This document shows positions 1,766-15,648 of a DNA stretch of 64,000 bases, in pieces. The DNA comes from Candidatus Obscuribacter sp. (GTDB taxonomy: Bacteria > Cyanobacteriota > Vampirovibrionia > Obscuribacterales > Obscuribacteraceae). The position numbers and the translations under genes were made by a program. The notes below the pieces were generated by a model, which was not told where the DNA came from, made no database searches, and saw nothing but the letters and a program-made list of their open reading frames with translations. Numbering within the stretch: the first letter of the stretch is position 1; each line of letters starts with the position of its first letter. The DNA is taken from contig JADYXQ010000189.1 of NCBI GenBank assembly GCA_021772135.1, forward strand, positions 1-64,000. Reading direction: 5' to 3'.

Positions 1766-3286
1766 TTACCAGCTCCGCGTACTCAAATAAGTACCTTTCT
1801 CTTCTCTCCTCCACCAGCGGCCGGTTCTAAGCATGACGGAAGGAGTCTCCAGCTCATAATTGAAAATTCGCACTCTTAAAAATCTCGGTGGCAACTGCGA
1901 ACATGGATTGGTTTGCACGAGGGTAAGCACACATTCATCGTTGTGTGCCAGGCCATTTAAAAAGCTGACAAACCAGCGGTTTGGTCGGGCACCACTGCTG
2001 GCATTCAGTGCTTCGAACCAGAGCTGCCAGTCAAGGCGCGGCATATGTGGTGCTATTACCGGTGGTGGCCTATCAAGAGCGCCGATTTTATAGACAAATT
2101 CATAAGGCTTGTAGTTCGCTCCGTCTGCACTACCTTCTATGATTAGCTCCGGGCGTTCTCTGGTCATACTGGCAAAAAGTCCGTAACCCGCAGATATACC
2201 CCAGCTCTGGCAGACACTGTAAGCAAACCTTGCCGGTGCTGGCAGCATATAGAAAAAGTCGCGGCCGCATGTCGTCAATGCCAGACTAGTTGAGCTGGCG
2301 AAAACAATCATGAACATGGCCGGATAAACGATAATTTTCTCCAAGACAATTGTTTCTTTACGGCCATTTTCGAGAAAAGCCGATCGGCTTAAAATCCAGT
2401 TCTTGAGGGGCGCAAGGCGCGGCCTTTGCAAAAATTTGTCCAGGTCTTGCTCTTGCAGCCATGAAAGGGCGAGAGCAGAGCTGAGCAAATTGAAAAAGCC
2501 GTAATTGCCTGAAGCGGCAATTGCTACCTGCATAAGACAAAATGAAATTGCTGCATACCGACGCAGGCGAGCTGTGGTAAATAGTAAAAAAGGCACCATT
2601 ATTTCAATAAATAGAGTGGCAGCGCAGGCCGCTTTACTTAAAAACAAAGGCATTTGCTGACAAAAAATTGCCAGTGGCGTGGGCAGTGGCTGAGTTTCAA
2701 AATGATAGGTGAGCGCAGTTAATCTTAGCCAGCTTGAGTCGTCCATGGGCTCGGTAAATAATTTGACGAATCCGGATGAAAACATTAAGCGAAATGTCAG
2801 CCAGGCAAGAGCTAAAACGGCCAGGCCGCGGCTTTTTGGTGAGAAGGAAAATAGTCTGCTGCGGCCTACAAATATTGAAATAAATCCACTTTCTAAAAGC
2901 AGCATATCCCACTGGAAAGAAAGAAAATCTTGGCCGACAGAAACTATCGACAGATAACAAAGGTAAAGAGCTAGCAGCACAAAAGGCTCGAGCACGGCAA
3001 AAAAGAGCGCCAGAGAGAGCAAACAACCGGCCGCAGTGACTGCTACAAGGGTACTAAACTGCGGTGCGAAAAGCAGAAAAGAAGGTGACTTGATGAGGCC
3101 CGGCAAAATTGAATTTTGATTTGCCAGAGCCGCCTCTTGCAGAAATAAATTTACAGGAGCGATGCCATGATCACCATAAAGGCCATTCAGTTGCGGCCAG
3201 AGCGACGCAAAGGCACAGAAGTAGACCACTGCCAGTAAACGCAGATAAAAGGCAATGATCAAATCTGGAGATTTATTCAGTATCAA
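1766..3286 (-). CDS. Lipase maturation factor (LMF)-family multi-pass membrane protein
   Basis: A 506-residue integral membrane protein with many hydrophobic segments in its first 350 residues and a soluble C-terminal region of about 150 residues. Family signatures of lipase maturation factor/DUF1222 proteins are visible: LYGDHGIAPV near residue 37, VGQDFLSFQWDMLLLESGF near 120, and YHFETQPLPTPLA near 195. In animals LMF1 helps fold lipases in the ER; the bacterial homologues have no settled role. Its start overlaps the idi stop by four bases (ATGA type), so it is translationally coupled to idi and the glycosyltransferase upstream. That suggests a role in a cell-envelope or lipid process rather than lipase folding, but this is inference. 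Confidence 0.85.
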   Translation of the reverse strand: MILNKSPDLIIAFYLRLLAVVYFCAFASLWPQLNGLYGDHGIAPVNLFLQEAALANQNSILPGLIKSPSFLLFAPQFSTLVAVTAAGCLLSLALFFAVLEPFVLLALYLCYLSIVSVGQDFLSFQWDMLLLESGFISIFVGRSRLFSFSPKSRGLAVLALAWLTFRLMFSSGFVKLFTEPMDDSSWLRLTALTYHFETQPLPTPLAIFCQQMPLFLSKAACAATLFIEIMVPFLLFTTARLRRYAAISFCLMQVAIAASGNYGFFNLLSSALALSWLQEQDLDKFLQRPRLAPLKNWILSRSAFLENGRKETIVLEKIIVYPAMFMIVFASSTSLALTTCGRDFFYMLPAPARFAYSVCQSWGISAGYGLFASMTRERPELIIEGSADGANYKPYEFVYKIGALDRPPPVIAPHMPRLDWQLWFEALNASSGARPNRWFVSFLNGLAHNDECVLTLVQTNPCSQLPPRFLRVRIFNYELETPSVMLRTGRWWRREEKGTYLSTRSW

Positions 3287-6498: not shown

Positions 6499-8187
6499 CT
6501 ATCTTACCTCAAGCACTCGTAAGGGTCTAATAGACTGACTAATTTCGTGAGTTGATAGTTTAGCTGTGCCGCGCGGCAGTAATTTTGTCATGGCGCTGGA
6601 GCTGCCCACAACATATAACTTTTCGCTGGCCCGCTCGGCCAGGAGATAGCAAAAGTACTGTAGTTTCCAGTCAGTAAGTCTTTCGATTCCTGATTCAAGG
6701 CCGGTTAATATAACCACCCTGGCGGTGAGCGCGCGAAATTGAAACAGAGAAGTTTCGAGCACGGTTGGCTTGCCTTTAGGTTTAGCCAGTTGCCGACTGC
6801 TTCTGACACCGTCATTAAATCTGAGCCGTCTTTTGCCTCTATCGTTACCGGCACGCAAAATCACTATATCGCCTGCTCCATAAGCGCCCGTGGCAATTAA
6901 ATCATTGACGACAAATTCGACCGTGTCTGCTATCTCCGATTCATTTCTACTTTCGAATAGCTCCATTTTTTCACTGACATTGTTGTGCAAGAAGTTTTGG
7001 TTTTGTTCTTGTTCAGGAAAGAAAGTCAGCTGCCAGTTTAAGGTTTGTGCCGCTACCGGCACCACGCTCAAACGATTAAACCTGAGCAACTGTGGGTCGT
7101 AAAAATAGACGTAGTGTCCTTTGACCGTGTCTCTCAAACAGTGCTTAAGAGAGCGCCACATGTTCGGCCCGAAGCAATGGCCTTCAAGCACGATGATGGC
7201 ATCAAATTGATTTTCTGGTCGGAGGTGCACAGCCTCCACTAACAATTCAGGAAATGTTTCGTTGAAGATTCTGGCACTGCTAGATCTTGGCGTCTTCAGT
7301 TGAGCGGCCTGGGCTGCCCAGTGGCAGAACGCATGGAAAGTTGAAATTGTCACTGCATTTGAAGGATTATTGGACCCTTCACTTGTGACATTCTGGTTGT
7401 GCACGTTTCGCAGATGCAAAGCCAGCATACGCGAATGATTGACGAGCAGAACTTTTTTGCCGGCGGCAGCGAGATCAAGAGTCAGGCTATATGCGGTTTC
7501 TGCTTCACGAAGACCATTGCCACAGGAGACATTTATGGTACTCACAGTTTTCATCAGAGTGGTGAGCTCTTCCACCATATGTGATTTCTCCGTATTTACC
7601 GGCCATTCAATCAACTGAACTGAGCGTTTTTGCATTCGTAAAGCCCGATAGAGGCTGGTGCGCATGAAATTGGCCAGGACGGAGTTGAGTAATCCTTCAA
7701 GCAAATCACGCACCAGCTGCGACTGCAATCTGGCTTTAAGGCGAATTAGAAGCTGTTTAGTTTCAAGAGTGGTCAGCTCCAACTTCAATGCAATAGCGCT
7801 GCTAGTGCATGGGGTGCCGCCGTAAAAGCCATAAAGTAATTTAGCAGCGTTGAACGAACGCCGGCCTTCTTCGGTGATGCTCATTTGCTTGCTGAACTGC
7901 TCGAACAGTTCAGCGCAGACCGGCGCGTATCCTAGTTGTTCAAGCAATTCCACTGTGAGGCTCTCACAACCAACATTTTTTAGCAGTGTTGAAAGGGTGG
8001 TGGGTTTTCCATAAATGGTTTCCAGCAAACTTTCAAATGCTCTCACTTGCACCATCTGGCCAAGATTTTTAACCACGACTCCGGGTTGTGGTTTGTCGAA
8101 AAAAGATGGCAGAGGCTCCAGCAAGCATGCTTCGGCTACGGAGGCTGTGGCTCCAGTCTGAGCCGCTGCAGTAATGATTTCAACCAT
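6499..8187 (-). CDS. Degenerate UvrD/NERD-type SF1 helicase-like protein with an N-terminal HTH
   Basis: A 562-residue protein that keeps the order of SF1 (UvrD-like) helicase motifs while losing their catalytic residues. At 218-232 the expected GxxGTGKT loop is VSCGNGLREAE. VLLVNHSRMLALHL and TISTFHAFCHW (near 245 and 282) match motif Ia regions. Walker B, usually VDEGQDF, reads FDAIIVLEGHCF near 330. Motif V is SLFQFRALTARVVILTGLE, and motif VI near the end is LLAERASEKLYVVGSS, without the SRA arginine. Residues 110-155 resemble sigma-70 region 4 (LLYGFYGGTP then an HTH). I therefore expect no ATP hydrolysis, but possible nucleic-acid or protein binding. The frame is intact, and AGGGGGT five bases before the ATG is a strong ribosome binding site. 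Function unknown. Confidence 0.75.
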   Translation of the reverse strand: MVEIITAAAQTGATASVAEACLLEPLPSFFDKPQPGVVVKNLGQMVQVRAFESLLETIYGKPTTLSTLLKNVGCESLTVELLEQLGYAPVCAELFEQFSKQMSITEEGRRSFNAAKLLYGFYGGTPCTSSAIALKLELTTLETKQLLIRLKARLQSQLVRDLLEGLLNSVLANFMRTSLYRALRMQKRSVQLIEWPVNTEKSHMVEELTTLMKTVSTINVSCGNGLREAETAYSLTLDLAAAGKKVLLVNHSRMLALHLRNVHNQNVTSEGSNNPSNAVTISTFHAFCHWAAQAAQLKTPRSSSARIFNETFPELLVEAVHLRPENQFDAIIVLEGHCFGPNMWRSLKHCLRDTVKGHYVYFYDPQLLRFNRLSVVPVAAQTLNWQLTFFPEQEQNQNFLHNNVSEKMELFESRNESEIADTVEFVVNDLIATGAYGAGDIVILRAGNDRGKRRLRFNDGVRSSRQLAKPKGKPTVLETSLFQFRALTARVVILTGLESGIERLTDWKLQYFCYLLAERASEKLYVVGSSSAMTKLLPRGTAKLSTHEISQSIRPLRVLEVR

Positions 8188-8284
8188 AATCTACCCCCTC
8201 GATGCATGAATCTATGCATGCATGCTAAAGGTGGGCGCACTGATTTGCACTGTGCAAAAGCACAGACTTAGTTAGTGACAATCA
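8188..8284 (-). promoter_or_regulatory. Palindromic leader upstream of the pseudo-helicase gene
   Basis: The 97 bases between the TPR gene stop and the pseudo-helicase start hold two palindromic stretches. One is a 7-1-7 inverted repeat TTTGCAC-T-GTGCAAA at 8244-8258. The other is a run of overlapping ATGCAT/GCATGC palindromes at 8202-8225. Both lie 15-70 bases before the start codon, where operators sit. No clear -35/-10 pair was found. Operator function is inferred from position only. Confidence 0.3.
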
Positions 8285-9397
8285 CTATTTGCGATTGTTT
8301 TTGTTCTGTTTTTCTGCGTCAGCTTCGGCCTGAAGCTTTTGTTCGATGGTCAAAGTATCTCCGCGCACTACTGCAGGCATTGCCGGCACTACAGCCGGAA
8401 CAGACTCAACAGAAGGAGTTACGACTTTATTATCCGTGACAACTTTATTGGTTTCAACTTTATCGCTGGTATTGACCGGAGCATCTGCGCCTGCTGGTGC
8501 TTCTGTAAAGTGGCTTGAGATGGCGGCAGCTTCTTCGGTCTTGCCGTTTTTAGTCAACAAGGCTGAATATGATTTCACCAGGCTGGTTCGAATTGGGCTA
8601 TAGCCTGCCTTGCTTCTGTCGACTTTGTCCAGACTCTCCACTATACCCTTGTAAAGGCTGTCGGCATCGGGCTTGCCAGCCGCATTGGCAACATCCGCCC
8701 ATTCGAGCCTGGCTTTGAGGGCATCAGTGCTGGTGGCACCAAATTGCCTCTCTTTAATCTGCGCAACTTGTTGGTAGAACGAGACAGCGTCTTTGGTATT
8801 ACCCGTTGTATGGTAGAGAATGCCCAATTTGGAAAGGGCATCAAGGCGCTGGTAGCTGCCGGAACCATCTTGCTTGGTAATGTATATGAGAGCGTTTTTG
8901 TAACAAGACTCAGCTTGAGAAGTATGTTTTTGTTGAGCATAAACGTCTCCCAGAAGCGTGAGCATTTGCGGCATAGCAGTGTCGCTGTAACCCCAGATGG
9001 AATTGCGAATGCCGATAGCATCACGCAATAGCGCTTCTGCCATTTTTAAATCAGGCGGCTTGGCTGCCATTTTAGCTTTCGCTTGTTCAAACTCTTTAAC
9101 CGTTTTGACACCAAGCATTTGAGCTTTTTTAGGATCTATTGTGGCAGTACCCAGCGCGTCTACAGACATGGGCGAATTGCCAGCGGCTGCAGCCGTCTGT
9201 GGTGTCATACCCGGTACCATGCGATAAGGATTGGTCATAGCATTAACGGTGGCCGCCGAGGGAACGCCCTTAGGCATGGCCATCAGTCCGCCATATTCCA
9301 TCATTGCCTGGGCGCCGACAGCTTGCACCGCCACAAATTGACAGCCGATCAAATTTGTGACGGCCAGTAAAATCAAGCTTTTGGAATGCCAAATCAT
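8285..9397 (-). CDS. Secreted TPR protein
   Basis: A 370-residue protein with an N-terminal signal peptide (hydrophobic stretch LILLAVTNLIGCQFVAVQAVGA; the Cys could make it a lipoprotein, but the lipobox is poor). Residues 120-270 hold three or four tetratricopeptide-like helices of the TPR_12 type (for example LLTLLGDVYAQQKHTSQAESCY). The C-terminus is a Val/Pro/Ala-rich linker ending in a highly charged tail. TPR arrays bind proteins; the partner is unknown. It is one of at least seven TPR proteins in this window with similar style. Confidence 0.8.
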   Translation of the reverse strand: MIWHSKSLILLAVTNLIGCQFVAVQAVGAQAMMEYGGLMAMPKGVPSAATVNAMTNPYRMVPGMTPQTAAAAGNSPMSVDALGTATIDPKKAQMLGVKTVKEFEQAKAKMAAKPPDLKMAEALLRDAIGIRNSIWGYSDTAMPQMLTLLGDVYAQQKHTSQAESCYKNALIYITKQDGSGSYQRLDALSKLGILYHTTGNTKDAVSFYQQVAQIKERQFGATSTDALKARLEWADVANAAGKPDADSLYKGIVESLDKVDRSKAGYSPIRTSLVKSYSALLTKNGKTEEAAAISSHFTEAPAGADAPVNTSDKVETNKVVTDNKVVTPSVESVPAVVPAMPAVVRGDTLTIEQKLQAEADAEKQNKNNRK

Positions 9398-9565
9398 GGT
9401 CTCTCCTTTTGGCTGCCGAAGGCAACATGTACAGCACTGACAATTTATGCCCTTTGTTAGAAGGCTCTATCCAATTTACACTCTTAGATACCTTCTTTAA
9501 GTTAACCGACTGCCAATATTGTGAGTGGGTACAATAAAGAGTCGAATCACTTCTCAGGTAGCATT

Positions 9566-10735
9566 GTGTCCAGCAATCAGAAATCAGTGCGAGTAGGCGA
9601 GCTTCTGGTTGACGCTCAAATAATAAGCTCAGCTGAAATGACCGAAGCAATCCAAGTATCAAAGCGTCTCGGTGTGCCGATTGGTCGCGTTTTAATGATG
9701 AGCGGCAGCGTGCGCCATGATGAGCTGGCGGCCTCTTTGCAGATTCAACCCCTGGTGCGTGAAGGGCAAATTCCTTACGACGCCGCCATCAGCGGTCTCA
9801 AGCGTGTTCACCAATTGCGCATGACCATGGCTGATGCACTGGCACGAGAAGATTTGCGGCCTGACCTGGTAGACAATCCTGAATATCTCGGCGAGCTTCT
9901 GCTCGACTCCAATTTAGTCGCCCCAGAAGATATGGAAAAGGCTATTCAAACCAGTATGGCTTCGGGAATACCTCTCGGCAGCGCTTTAGTGTTGCAGGGT
10001 CTGCTTTCGCCAGCCTTATTTCCATCTTTGCAGCGCATTCAGCAGCAACTGGTAGAGGGCACTCTCGGTCGCGAAGAAGGTATTAAAGAAGTTCAGGATA
10101 CTTTCGTTCACTGGCTTAAGGCCGAAGAATCTAAAGACCAGCCTGAAGCTGCGCTTCAACCAAGCGATGCCATTGCCGCCCCCGACCCGCCCTATCAAGC
10201 GACTGTAGCACAAGCGCCCAAAGAACCCGCCAAAAACAATGGTCAGAGTGCGCAACCTGCCGCCGTCGCCGCTGCCAGTGTCGCGCCTCAAGTTGAACCG
10301 GTCAAAGCCAGAGCCGAGGTGCAAGCAGTCGCCGATATCAGGTTGGTAGATCTATTGAAAAGCGCAGGTTTTTTTTCACAAGCAGATGTGCAAAAACGCT
10401 ACGAGGCCATGCTTAAAGACCCGGTACGTTCGGCAAAATTCTTTTTAGAACTGGGTCTATTGGCTGAAGAAGATGTAAAAAATGCTGTGCGCAGTCACGG
10501 CCTCATGACCAAGGGCAGCCTCACCCGAGAAGAAGCAATTTTTGCGCTCAGTAGTTGCCGCACCAGCGATCTGGAAAAACAGATCAGTCAAGCGGGTTCG
10601 CCGGCGGCTAATAATGCCAAAATCGATCGCTACATGGACAAAGGTCAACGCAACGTCATGTCAAAAGTGATTGGCGGCGCCCTCTTTGGTGCCATCATCG
10701 CCGGTTTTACTTTCTCTAATCGCGGCAAAAAGTAA
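9566..10735 (+). CDS. Tandem GspE-N/MshEN-like repeat protein with C-terminal membrane anchor
   Basis: The protein has two adjacent repeats of about 95 residues, each built on GELLL...(D/E)MxxAIQ...G(V/I)P(I/L)G..L, then an Ala/Pro-rich linker (about residues 195-260) and a third, more distant repeat. The repeat resembles the N-terminal domain of type II secretion/type IV pilus ATPases (GspE-N, MshEN), but no ATPase domain follows. The C-terminus carries a Gly-zipper hydrophobic segment (VIGGALFGAIIAGF) followed by basic residues, as in a tail anchor. GTG 9566 is my preferred start; GTG 9521 is in frame but would precede a TACAAT box at 9530-9535 that looks like a -10. A paralogue lies at 42714-43916. 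MshEN domains of related proteins can bind cyclic-di-GMP; whether these do is unknown. Confidence 0.75.
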   Translation: MSSNQKSVRVGELLVDAQIISSAEMTEAIQVSKRLGVPIGRVLMMSGSVRHDELAASLQIQPLVREGQIPYDAAISGLKRVHQLRMTMADALAREDLRPDLVDNPEYLGELLLDSNLVAPEDMEKAIQTSMASGIPLGSALVLQGLLSPALFPSLQRIQQQLVEGTLGREEGIKEVQDTFVHWLKAEESKDQPEAALQPSDAIAAPDPPYQATVAQAPKEPAKNNGQSAQPAAVAAASVAPQVEPVKARAEVQAVADIRLVDLLKSAGFFSQADVQKRYEAMLKDPVRSAKFFLELGLLAEEDVKNAVRSHGLMTKGSLTREEAIFALSSCRTSDLEKQISQAGSPAANNAKIDRYMDKGQRNVMSKVIGGALFGAIIAGFTFSNRGKK

Positions 10736-11905: not shown

Positions 11906-12111
11906 TGACATCCTTAACAAGCCGAAGTATTGACCCAGTTCTCTTTGCAGGCGCAGTTTTCTCAAGTATGATGGATGAAAGCTACGCGCAGTCTAGATTT
12001 TATTATCCTTCTTCATCTCTTTTAGATAAATAAGAGAACAGATCCCTACCAAAGGCTGCGTAAGATATACAATTCGTAGTTAGTTCTATGCAGTAGAGTA
12101 ACGACAGGTCT

Positions 12112-12609
12112 ATGCCCGAAATAAATTCTTCCAGCGCTTCTTCCACCTCACAACCGGCAGCTTCCAATGCGGATGCCGGATCGTTGACTTTAAAGCTTCT
12201 GGAATTGCAAGAGGCTATGGTGCAATCGCAAGAAAAAAATCTCATGCTTTCAGCGCAATTGCGAGAGCTTGAGAGGAGCAGTCGCGATGGCGAAGATTTA
12301 AAATCAGAACTGATAAACCAGGGTTTGCTGCTCACGGACAAAAGTCGTGAGAACAAACAATTGCATCAAGAGCTAGGACGAATCACCAGTCTGCTCGAAC
12401 AGAAATTGCAGGAAGTGGAAGAACTTAGAGCGTCAGTGGTTGAATTAGGCCACCAGCTAAAAACTCGCGAGTCTGAACGAGATTTGCTGGCAGTGATGCT
12501 TAATGAAGCTGAAAACGCCGGACGCCGTCAATCGACGGAAGACACTTACCAGCAAGTTGCTAAAGACACGCCGGGCTGGCTAAAAGCCTTCAAAGGCAAA
12601 AGCAACTAA
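12112..12609 (+). CDS. Coiled-coil protein of unknown function
   Basis: A 165-residue acidic protein. After a Ser/Ala-rich N-terminus of about 30 residues, residues 35-140 form a strongly predicted coiled coil (Leu/Glu/Gln/Lys heptads such as LELQEAMVQSQEKNLMLSA). A short C-terminal tail ends WLKAFKGKSN. There is no signal peptide and no membrane segment. The stop lies three bases before the meaB start, so the two are almost certainly co-transcribed. Whether it acts with MeaB is unknown. I do not recognise the family. Confidence 0.75.
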   Translation: MPEINSSSASSTSQPAASNADAGSLTLKLLELQEAMVQSQEKNLMLSAQLRELERSSRDGEDLKSELINQGLLLTDKSRENKQLHQELGRITSLLEQKLQEVEELRASVVELGHQLKTRESERDLLAVMLNEAENAGRRQSTEDTYQQVAKDTPGWLKAFKGKSN

Positions 12610-12612
12610 ATC

Positions 12613-13581
12613 TTGAATTCAAATGTAGATGCCATTGCAAAAGAATTGCTGGCCGGTAACCGGCGGGCTCTTGGTCGCGCCATTTCACTGGTGGAAAACG
12701 GTGGCGCCGATGCCACCAGCCTGGTGCACGAACTGTACAGCCACACGGGCAAAGCACACATAATCGGCGTCACCGGCTCACCCGGGGTGGGCAAGTCGAC
12801 ACTGGTAGATGCACTAATAACCGAATGTCGTAAAGAAGATTTGAAAGTGGCTGTGTTGGCCGTAGATCCTTCAAGCCCTTTTACGGGCGGAGCGATTCTC
12901 GGCGATCGTATACGCATGCAAGGACACACTTTAGATCGCAACGTTTTTATTCGTTCTATGGCTAATCGTGGCCATCAGGGCGGAGTTTCACTGGCGACCT
13001 ATGACGCCATTCGCATGCTGGAAGCATCTGGCTATCAAGTGATCATTATTGAAACCGTTGGCGTTGGTCAGTCTGAGCTGGCCATCGCTCAGCATGCCGA
13101 CACAACTATTTTGGTGCTGATGCCCGGATCAGGCGATGACATTCAAGCAATCAAATCAGGCATCATGGAAATCGGCGACATTTTTGTAGTCAATAAAGGC
13201 GATTTGCCCGGCGCCAATAAATCTGCCAGCGAGATTACGGCCTCGTTAGAGCTAAATCATTTTCAGACATCGTGGCGTCCGCCTGTGGTGCTGGCCATAG
13301 CCGAAACCGGGCAGGGCATCGACCAGTTATGGCAAGCGGCCAAAGAGCACAAAAAATTCCTTACCGATGAGAATTTGCTCGACAAAAGACGCAGCTTACG
13401 TATTCGTGCCGAACTTTCAGAAATAGTGGCTGACATTGCCCGTCGCAATTTGCAAGGCTCAATGGACAGTGAAGCTGTGCGAAAAATTTTGAGCCAGATA
13501 GTCAATCGCGAAGTCGATCCGCATACAGCGGCAATCAATTTATTACCTGGTTTATTGAGCAGCGCTACAGCCCGCTCATAA
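12613..13581 (+). CDS. meaB: Methylmalonyl-CoA mutase-associated GTPase (MeaB/ArgK family)
   Basis: A G3E-type P-loop GTPase that guards and reloads adenosylcobalamin in methylmalonyl-CoA mutase. The 322 residues match the family. The P loop is GSPGVGKS at 55-62. Downstream come AVDPSSPFTGGAILGDRIRM (switch I region), IIETVGVGQSE (switch II) and NKGD for guanine recognition. The start is a TTG; no nearby ATG is in frame. No mutase gene is in the window, so the client enzyme must lie elsewhere, or may be a related B12 mutase. The gene implies propionyl/methylmalonyl-CoA metabolism. Confidence 0.92.
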   Translation: MNSNVDAIAKELLAGNRRALGRAISLVENGGADATSLVHELYSHTGKAHIIGVTGSPGVGKSTLVDALITECRKEDLKVAVLAVDPSSPFTGGAILGDRIRMQGHTLDRNVFIRSMANRGHQGGVSLATYDAIRMLEASGYQVIIIETVGVGQSELAIAQHADTTILVLMPGSGDDIQAIKSGIMEIGDIFVVNKGDLPGANKSASEITASLELNHFQTSWRPPVVLAIAETGQGIDQLWQAAKEHKKFLTDENLLDKRRSLRIRAELSEIVADIARRNLQGSMDSEAVRKILSQIVNREVDPHTAAINLLPGLLSSATARS

Positions 13582-14832: not shown

Positions 14833-15648
14833 ATGAGCGGACGAGTAATCGTAATCACCTCCGGCAAGGGTGGTGTTGGCAAGACAACAGCTTCTGCCAA
14901 TATCGGCGTCGCTCTTGCCTCCACAGGGGTGAGCGTTGCCCTGGTTGACATGGATATAGGTCTGCGCAATCTCGACATTCTGATGGGTCTGGAAAACCGC
15001 GTGGTTTACAACCTGGTGGATGTTGTTGAAGAGCGTTGCAAACTGCGCCAGGCTCTGGTCAAAGACAAAAAGTTGCCAAACTTGAGTTTATTGCCTGCAG
15101 CTCAAACCAGAGACAAATCAGCAGTCAATGCTGAGCAGATGAAAGCGCTCTGCGGCGAACTGAAAAGCATGTATGATTTCGTGCTCGTTGACAGCCCCGC
15201 TGGTATCGAACAAGGATTTCAAAATGCCGTAGCGGGTGCTGACGAAGCCATCGTTATCACCACTCCAGAAATGTCTGCCGTGCGTGACGCCGATCGCATC
15301 ATTGGTTTGCTCGAAGCGCGCAAAGACGAAATCAAAGAATATCGCCTCGTTCTCAATCGTTATAGACCAACAATGGTGGCCAATAATGACATGATGAGCG
15401 TCGACGATGTGCTTGAAATTCTTTCTGTAAAATTGCTTGGCGTCGTGCCTGAAGATGAAGACATCATCATCTCCACCAACAAAGGCGAGCCGATTTCCGG
15501 CACCGACAACATCAGAGCTGGCCTGGCTTATCGCAACATCGCTCGCCGCATTCGCGGTGAAGATGTAGCCATAATGGATCTTGAGTCCAAGAATTCAACC
15601 TGGATCAACAAGATCGTCAGCTTCTTTAATCCCACAGTTAGAGTTTAA
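14833..15648 (+). CDS. minD: Septum site-determining ATPase MinD
   Basis: The membrane-cycling ATPase of the Min system: it binds membrane in its ATP form, carries MinC, and is released by MinE. The 271-residue protein begins with a deviant Walker A motif KGGVGKT at residues 12-18, followed by VDMDIGLRNLDILMGLE (switch I) and VDSPAGIEQGF (Walker B/switch II). The C-terminus WINKIVSFF is the expected amphipathic membrane-targeting helix. GAGG precedes the ATG. Cyanobacteria and their sister groups carry MinD of this type. Confidence 0.96.
   Translation: MSGRVIVITSGKGGVGKTTASANIGVALASTGVSVALVDMDIGLRNLDILMGLENRVVYNLVDVVEERCKLRQALVKDKKLPNLSLLPAAQTRDKSAVNAEQMKALCGELKSMYDFVLVDSPAGIEQGFQNAVAGADEAIVITTPEMSAVRDADRIIGLLEARKDEIKEYRLVLNRYRPTMVANNDMMSVDDVLEILSVKLLGVVPEDEDIIISTNKGEPISGTDNIRAGLAYRNIARRIRGEDVAIMDLESKNSTWINKIVSFFNPTVRV

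Follow-up and report, generated by a model that had tools for sequence, protein, structure and literature searches.

An SF1 helicase relative with a lost ATPase site under purifying selection in one Vampirovibrionia-like bacterial family

To our knowledge, bacterial pseudo-helicases are few and old, the usual examples being AddB and RecC. The inactivated helicase domains of these two proteins keep the SF1 topology, have shed most of their motifs and read Chi in a single-stranded DNA track (PMC4824097). The Schlafen group III protein SLFN11 binds ssDNA with undetectable ATP binding or hydrolysis (PMC9482658); the eukaryotic pseudohelicase Utp25 keeps a helicase fold whose ATPase motifs are dispensable (PMC9539457); and HelD, a UvrD-like RNA polymerase (RNAP) recycling factor, combines active NTPase motifs with RNAP-channel insertions, no sigma-4 helix-turn-helix (HTH) being reported there (PMC7749160). 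Here we describe one orthologous locus where, within a single bacterial family, the helicase gene may be intact, half-disabled, dead or deleted, so that the order of events leading from motor to scaffold becomes directly testable.

The protein at the center of this study is encoded in the window, the whole 64,000-nucleotide stretch of DNA that was analysed. Like AddB and RecC, it has SF1 topology with lost ATPase motifs and is probably maintained as a non-motor part. AddB and RecC differ in working as subunits within helicase-nuclease complexes, alongside an active partner and with a nuclease (or nuclease-like) domain, neither of which was found for the window protein; a non-exhaustive partner search identified no AddA/RecB-like active partner, and the host MAG (93% complete) yielded no closely related intact paralog. 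The SLFN11 helicase domain provides the top fold matches (7zel and 7zep), but SLFN11 retains its Walker motifs and possesses an RNase core domain, and Utp25 is set apart by its DEAD-box ancestry and its role in eukaryotic ribosome assembly. HelD shares the SF1-like character, and a link to RNAP is possibly ancestral in the window protein's family. The helicase core order and sequence of the window protein are also those of NERD/UvrD-type SF1 helicases (PADLOC C3a187 'NERD+UvrD'; L014, L015, L066 and the viral L069), with which the window protein has in common motif Ia, the TFHxLC element, motif II, a YDD/YDP motif III and motif VI. It departs from them in lacking both Walker A Lys and Walker B Asp, and also at its N-terminus, where Pfam finds no NERD nuclease domain and a helical module with a sigma-4-like HTH stands instead.

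The gene and its SF1 ancestry

The pseudo-helicase gene runs from an ATG at position 8187 to a stop at 6499 on the minus strand (6499-8187) and encodes 562 amino acids; the coordinates and frame originally predicted hold, with the strand now assigned as minus. A plus-strand reading of the same interval was ruled out by its 23 stops. Direct reading of the sequence places a Shine-Dalgarno-like GAGGGGG at 8194-8200 (minus strand), 6 nt upstream of the ATG, and the ortholog from a sister species, G003, is likewise preceded by GAGGGG. The host genome is a 5.9-Mb MAG, approximately 93% complete, in which the gene is single-copy; no photosystem reaction-centre families were found in the genome of this species. 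Upstream, across a 97-nt gap, lies a gene for a TPR protein (8285-9397, minus strand; TPR_12 E=1.8e-10) that adjoins the helicase gene in most genera holding the latter, and the two genes possibly constitute an operon.

Surrounding genes are of a housekeeping type (MinC, MinD, MinE, FtsW/RodA, MeaB, an amidohydrolase and a permease). The order FtsW/RodA-MinE-MinD-MinC-MeaB-F6-amidohydrolase-F2-TPR-[helicase gene] is largely kept, with local differences, in genera g1, g6, g8, g10, g24 and g2, and this conservation across genera indicates that the helicase gene has been inherited vertically. A mobile or defence origin was ruled out, since the housekeeping neighborhood is kept across genera and the PADLOC match reflects only the generic NERD+UvrD helicase core. 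Plasmid and phage matches extend over no more than ~70% of the query and are essentially limited to the helicase core, and the viral-contig matches, when examined at full length, look NERD-headed.

Three other genes of the window deserve brief mention. The neighbor F2 (9521-10735, plus strand; 404 aa) bears a weak likeness to DUF4388, and its family is hugely amplified: many genomes of the bacterial family have ~17-34 matches each, mostly to the N-terminal ~190 aa. The MinD-like protein (14833-15648, plus strand), whose gene adjoins MinC- and MinE-like genes and the FtsW/RodA gene, shows 100% identity across 271 aa when the window species is compared with G003, despite a synonymous pS of 0.29. 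A Lipase maturation factor 1 homolog (1766-3286, minus strand; LMF1 E=3.5e-44, plus LMF1_C) belongs to a family best known in animals.

Searches of Pfam, NCBIfam and PDB sequences with the window protein alone gave no match above chance, as is expected from the divergence of this copy. The PADLOC profile 'NERD+UvrD' matches it directly (E=1.1e-10, residues 157-352), and intact-motif relatives from the same family match AAA_19, ResIII, UvrD_C_2 and similar domains. An AlphaFold2 model built on a 15-row ortholog alignment (pLDDT 81, pTM 0.78) displays two RecA-like domains in an SF1 arrangement. Foldseek pairs this model with RecD2, SLFN11, Ighmbp2, Upf1, Dna2 and UvrD (E 3e-9 to 2e-6 for RecD2, SLFN11, UvrD and Dna2); global TM-scores are low (0.3-0.4) because the N-terminus and domain arrangement differ. 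The original prediction had proposed a likeness to NERD/UvrD helicases that would fall if no RecA-like core were present; the profile match and the modeled fold place that likeness beyond chance, and the model contains such a core. The window protein is thus an SF1 (UvrD/NERD-type) helicase by descent. Ahead of the core, residues 36-105 (7873-8082, minus strand) form a helical module that aligns across the family (AlphaFold2 helices 42-102, pLDDT ~90); for comparison, the NERD helicase L015 carries a NERD domain scoring 42 bits.

All six genomes of the genus carry an ortholog, as do 15 of the 50 family genomes, with long open frames wherever the contig allows. No full-length sigma-4 helicase was found outside the family in either a class sample (146 genomes) or a phylum sample (292 genomes); phyla beyond its own were covered by a close-relative scan only. 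Four matches in the phylum sample span just the helicase core, and three of these look NERD-headed, L065 being the other. In the samples searched, the sigma-4 plus SF1 architecture was therefore found only in one Vampirovibrionia-like family.

The ATPase motifs

To assess the catalytic site, we compared its motifs one at a time against 14 orthologs (all coordinates that follow refer to the minus strand). In the former Walker A (motif I; residues 222-229, CGNGLREA; 7501-7524), the invariant Lys has become Glu228. The corresponding sequence is GGTGTGKT in the genus and GGNGMGET in G003, and neither the window protein nor G003 retains a GxxGxGK[TS] pattern; the P loop, as predicted, is gone, and its erosion in the window protein (G222C, G227R and T229A) exceeds that in G003. 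In the former Walker B (motif II; residues 330-338, AIIVLEGHC; 7174-7200), VDEGH in the genus is replaced by VLEGH in the window protein and AIEGH in G003. The Asp-Glu pair accordingly reads LE (Leu334-Glu335) in the former and IE in the latter: both residues had been thought missing, but only the Asp is lost and the Glu stays.

Several elements outside this pair are kept. These comprise motif Ia (residues 246-256, VLLVNHSRMLA; 7420-7452), with the invariant R253 and A256; the Ib-like TFH element (residues 279-288, VTISTFHAFC; 7324-7353), with the invariant H285 and C288; and motif III (residues 358-366, YVYFYDPQL; 7090-7116), which the ortholog alignment shows to be as in the rest of the genus. 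Motif VI (residues 514-524, YLLAERASEKL; 6616-6648) retains Arg519, a residue invariant in the family that the original prediction had reported as missing. The former motif IV region (residues 376-405; 6973-7062) is the fastest-diverging segment, with low pLDDT at 388-404 and 26% identity between the window protein and G003, as compared to 75-96% in intact pairs; its Arg is a Lys in intact g1 members and is lost in the window protein and G003. At the motif V position (residues 482-488, FQFRALT; 6724-6744), the FKGLE or FQGLE of canonical members has given way to FRALT in g1 and g5, a loss that extends to the whole subclade and predates the window protein.

Across 12 full-length members outside the window-G003 pair, 22 alignment columns are invariant. 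Seventeen of these are kept in both species (including R253, H285, D364 and R519) and two, Walker A K228 and Walker B D334, are lost from both; G222, G227 and L385 are additionally lost in the window protein. The idea that every ATPase motif is degraded thus overstated the damage: the P-loop and Walker B Asp have been lost, whereas the Walker B Glu, motif Ia, TFH element and motif VI Arg persist. Sequencing or assembly error was ruled out as the cause of the dead site, since the independent G003 MAG has the same K-to-E change and Asp loss.

In P-loop enzymes, ATP turnover is expected to cease when a K-to-E substitution is coupled with loss of the Asp that ligates Mg. From this chemistry, the window protein probably cannot hydrolyse ATP, and productive binding of Mg-ATP is also unlikely; lacking hydrolysis, it would not translocate. 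A rewired NTPase, in which a noncanonical site binds or hydrolyses nucleotide by means of Glu335 and Arg519, would explain why these two residues are conserved in both species, but would have to operate with a charge-reversed Lys (to Glu) and a hydrophobic residue in place of the Mg-ligand Asp in both, and, in the window copy, with two P-loop glycines also gone and no compensating Lys in the aligned motif. We regard such an enzyme as very improbable.

Phylogenetic analysis, using NERD helicases as an outgroup, joins the window protein and G003, which are 60% identical and have the dead site in common, with support of 100/100; the pair sits within its genus (100/99), which in turn falls within a subclade containing g5 and g10 (100/100). 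Orthologs at the same locus elsewhere in the genus and family possess intact P-loops and Walker B motifs. The ancestral protein was probably a sigma-region-4 HTH/SF1 (NERD-UvrD-type) helicase, inherited vertically at one locus, whose HTH module occupied the place of the NERD nuclease domain in related helicases. Its losses would have begun in the ancestor of g1, g5 and g10 with motif V and the residues by which sigma-4 reads DNA, continued in g1 with the motif IV Arg, and reached Walker A Lys and Walker B Asp in the ancestor shared by the window species and G003; placing this third step on their shared stem is simplest given the 100/100 grouping.

Selection, divergence and gene loss

For the window-G003 pair, the pairwise maximum-likelihood omega is 0.142, with an upper 95% bound below 0.196 and an LRT against omega=1 of 239.6; the estimate is approximate because synonymous sites are near saturation, yet the upper bound suffices to rule out neutral evolution. 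In simulations of neutral drift at 0.2 changes per site, ~10 stops accumulated and none of 500 runs remained stop-free. A dN/dS in this range indicates that the gene is not an unselected pseudogene. The loss of catalytic ligands is thus coupled to purifying selection, as expected of a maintained pseudoenzyme, and the earlier proposal of such a protein is supported by a second species with the same Lys and Asp losses.

Omega for the pair lies near the values for flanking genes in these two species (0.10-0.11) and for intact pairs (0.086-0.089). Selection on the pair is nonetheless moderately relaxed, its omega being ~1.6 times that of intact pairs. Divergence measured relative to three flanking genes is likewise higher in this pair (2.2) than otherwise (1.3-1.6). 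Compared with the intact pair G002-G004, which has similar flank divergence, and using segments set after the alignment had been seen, the excess falls in the N-terminal module, the linker and motifs I-Ia, IV and V-VI; in the segments that hold the HTH and motifs II and III, conservation matches that of the intact pair.

This relaxation bears on the main rival to a maintained pseudo-helicase, namely slow reductive decay, in which a dispensable helicase loses its motifs stepwise and the window copy is either a late intermediate that retains some function or a gene about to be lost. The losses are ordered along the tree, the window-G003 pair shows both the raised omega and the faster relative rate, and P-loop loss has gone further in the window copy than in its sister. 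In genus g11 (G032, G064 and G015), moreover, synteny reveals a clean empty site: the gene order is the same and the helicase gene is missing between the TPR gene and the next genes (L072 11413-11430; L073 about 12090-12742). Of the 50 family genomes, 35 lack the gene, and the dead site is carried by two species only; both observations count, as does the relaxed omega, against a maintained pseudo-helicase. Set against decay are the complete lack of stops and frameshifts in two lineages at 60% identity with near-saturated synonymous sites, together with the low omega and the deep-invariant columns kept in both species. Intact homologs, which the original prediction had named as a sign that this copy might be decaying, do exist, but simple decay is not borne out, and on balance we consider slow decay unlikely.

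A candidate scaffold and its N-terminal HTH

Maintenance of the protein as a pseudo-helicase, acting as an ATP-independent scaffold for nucleic acids or proteins by analogy with the inactivated helicase domains in AddB and RecC, is in our judgment the probable explanation. We favor it because AddB/RecC and SLFN11 are the closest functional models and because both the body and the nucleic-acid-side motifs remain. Motifs Ia, TFH and III and the motif VI Arg persist in a rigid 1A/2A body that could statically bind single-stranded nucleic acid or a partner protein; it is these kept motifs that suggest nucleic-acid binding. The remodeled HTH bundle, its -35 reading lost, may serve as a protein-contact or unspecific DNA-contact module.

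The HTH itself maps to residues 106-160 (7708-7872, minus strand) and is a degenerate version of sigma-70 region 4; the original placement at 110-155 was correct, and ancestry confirms its nature. Distant intact relatives bear a textbook sigma-70 region 4 (YYGLDG...SRERVRQIKERAL), with Pfam Sigma70_r4 scoring 26.0 and 28.2 bits in the two relatives L012 and L013, above the cutoff of 24.1, and the N-terminal profile matches sigma factors in the PDB (best SigB, E=1.4e-6). The Sigma70_r4 profile gives no match in the window protein, which reads TTLETKQ where relatives read SRERVRQ, and no other sigma regions were found in it. Six relatives keep the -35 recognition residues (SRE-R-RQ); none of the nine members that make up the g1/g5/g10 subclade does. 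Since the subclade as a whole had already lost these residues, sigma-like contact by the window copy is unlikely.

This history weakens the suggestion of a transcription-linked regulator: relatives do have a genuine sigma-4-like HTH, but the residues that would read a -35 element are missing from the subclade to which the window protein belongs. One could still envisage a motorless HelD-like device, its HTH bundle seated on RNA polymerase or promoter DNA and its dead helicase clamping DNA or RNA. Such a device would draw on a true ancestral sigma region 4, on an HTH segment whose identity in the pair (67%) equals that in intact pairs (65-71%), and on the precedent of HelD, which disassembles stalled complexes without NTP hydrolysis (PMC7749160). 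The loss of SRE-R-RQ speaks against it, as does the locus, where no transcription genes co-localise. HelD is marked by a coiled coil for the RNAP secondary channel and a split 1A; in the AlphaFold2 helix list of the window protein, its defining channel insertions were not seen and no inserted coiled coil is evident. We therefore judge this a decidedly improbable role.

Returning to the scaffold, a broader proposal can be offered tentatively, as one plausible account: that these proteins constitute an undescribed sigma-region-4 HTH/SF1 family confined to one family of non-photosynthetic cyanobacterial relatives, and that, step by step, one of its subclades exchanged the role of a promoter-reading motor for that of a scaffold binding nucleic acid or protein without ATP, a new function kept by selection. 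The intact relatives exhibit an unusual architecture, a sigma-4 HTH joined to an SF1 helicase, and may have a transcription-linked role of their own; proteins in which both the sigma-region-4 HTH and the helicase are intact are encoded at L013 1423-3102 (plus strand), L012 1399-3069 (minus strand) and L063 8921-10600 (plus strand).
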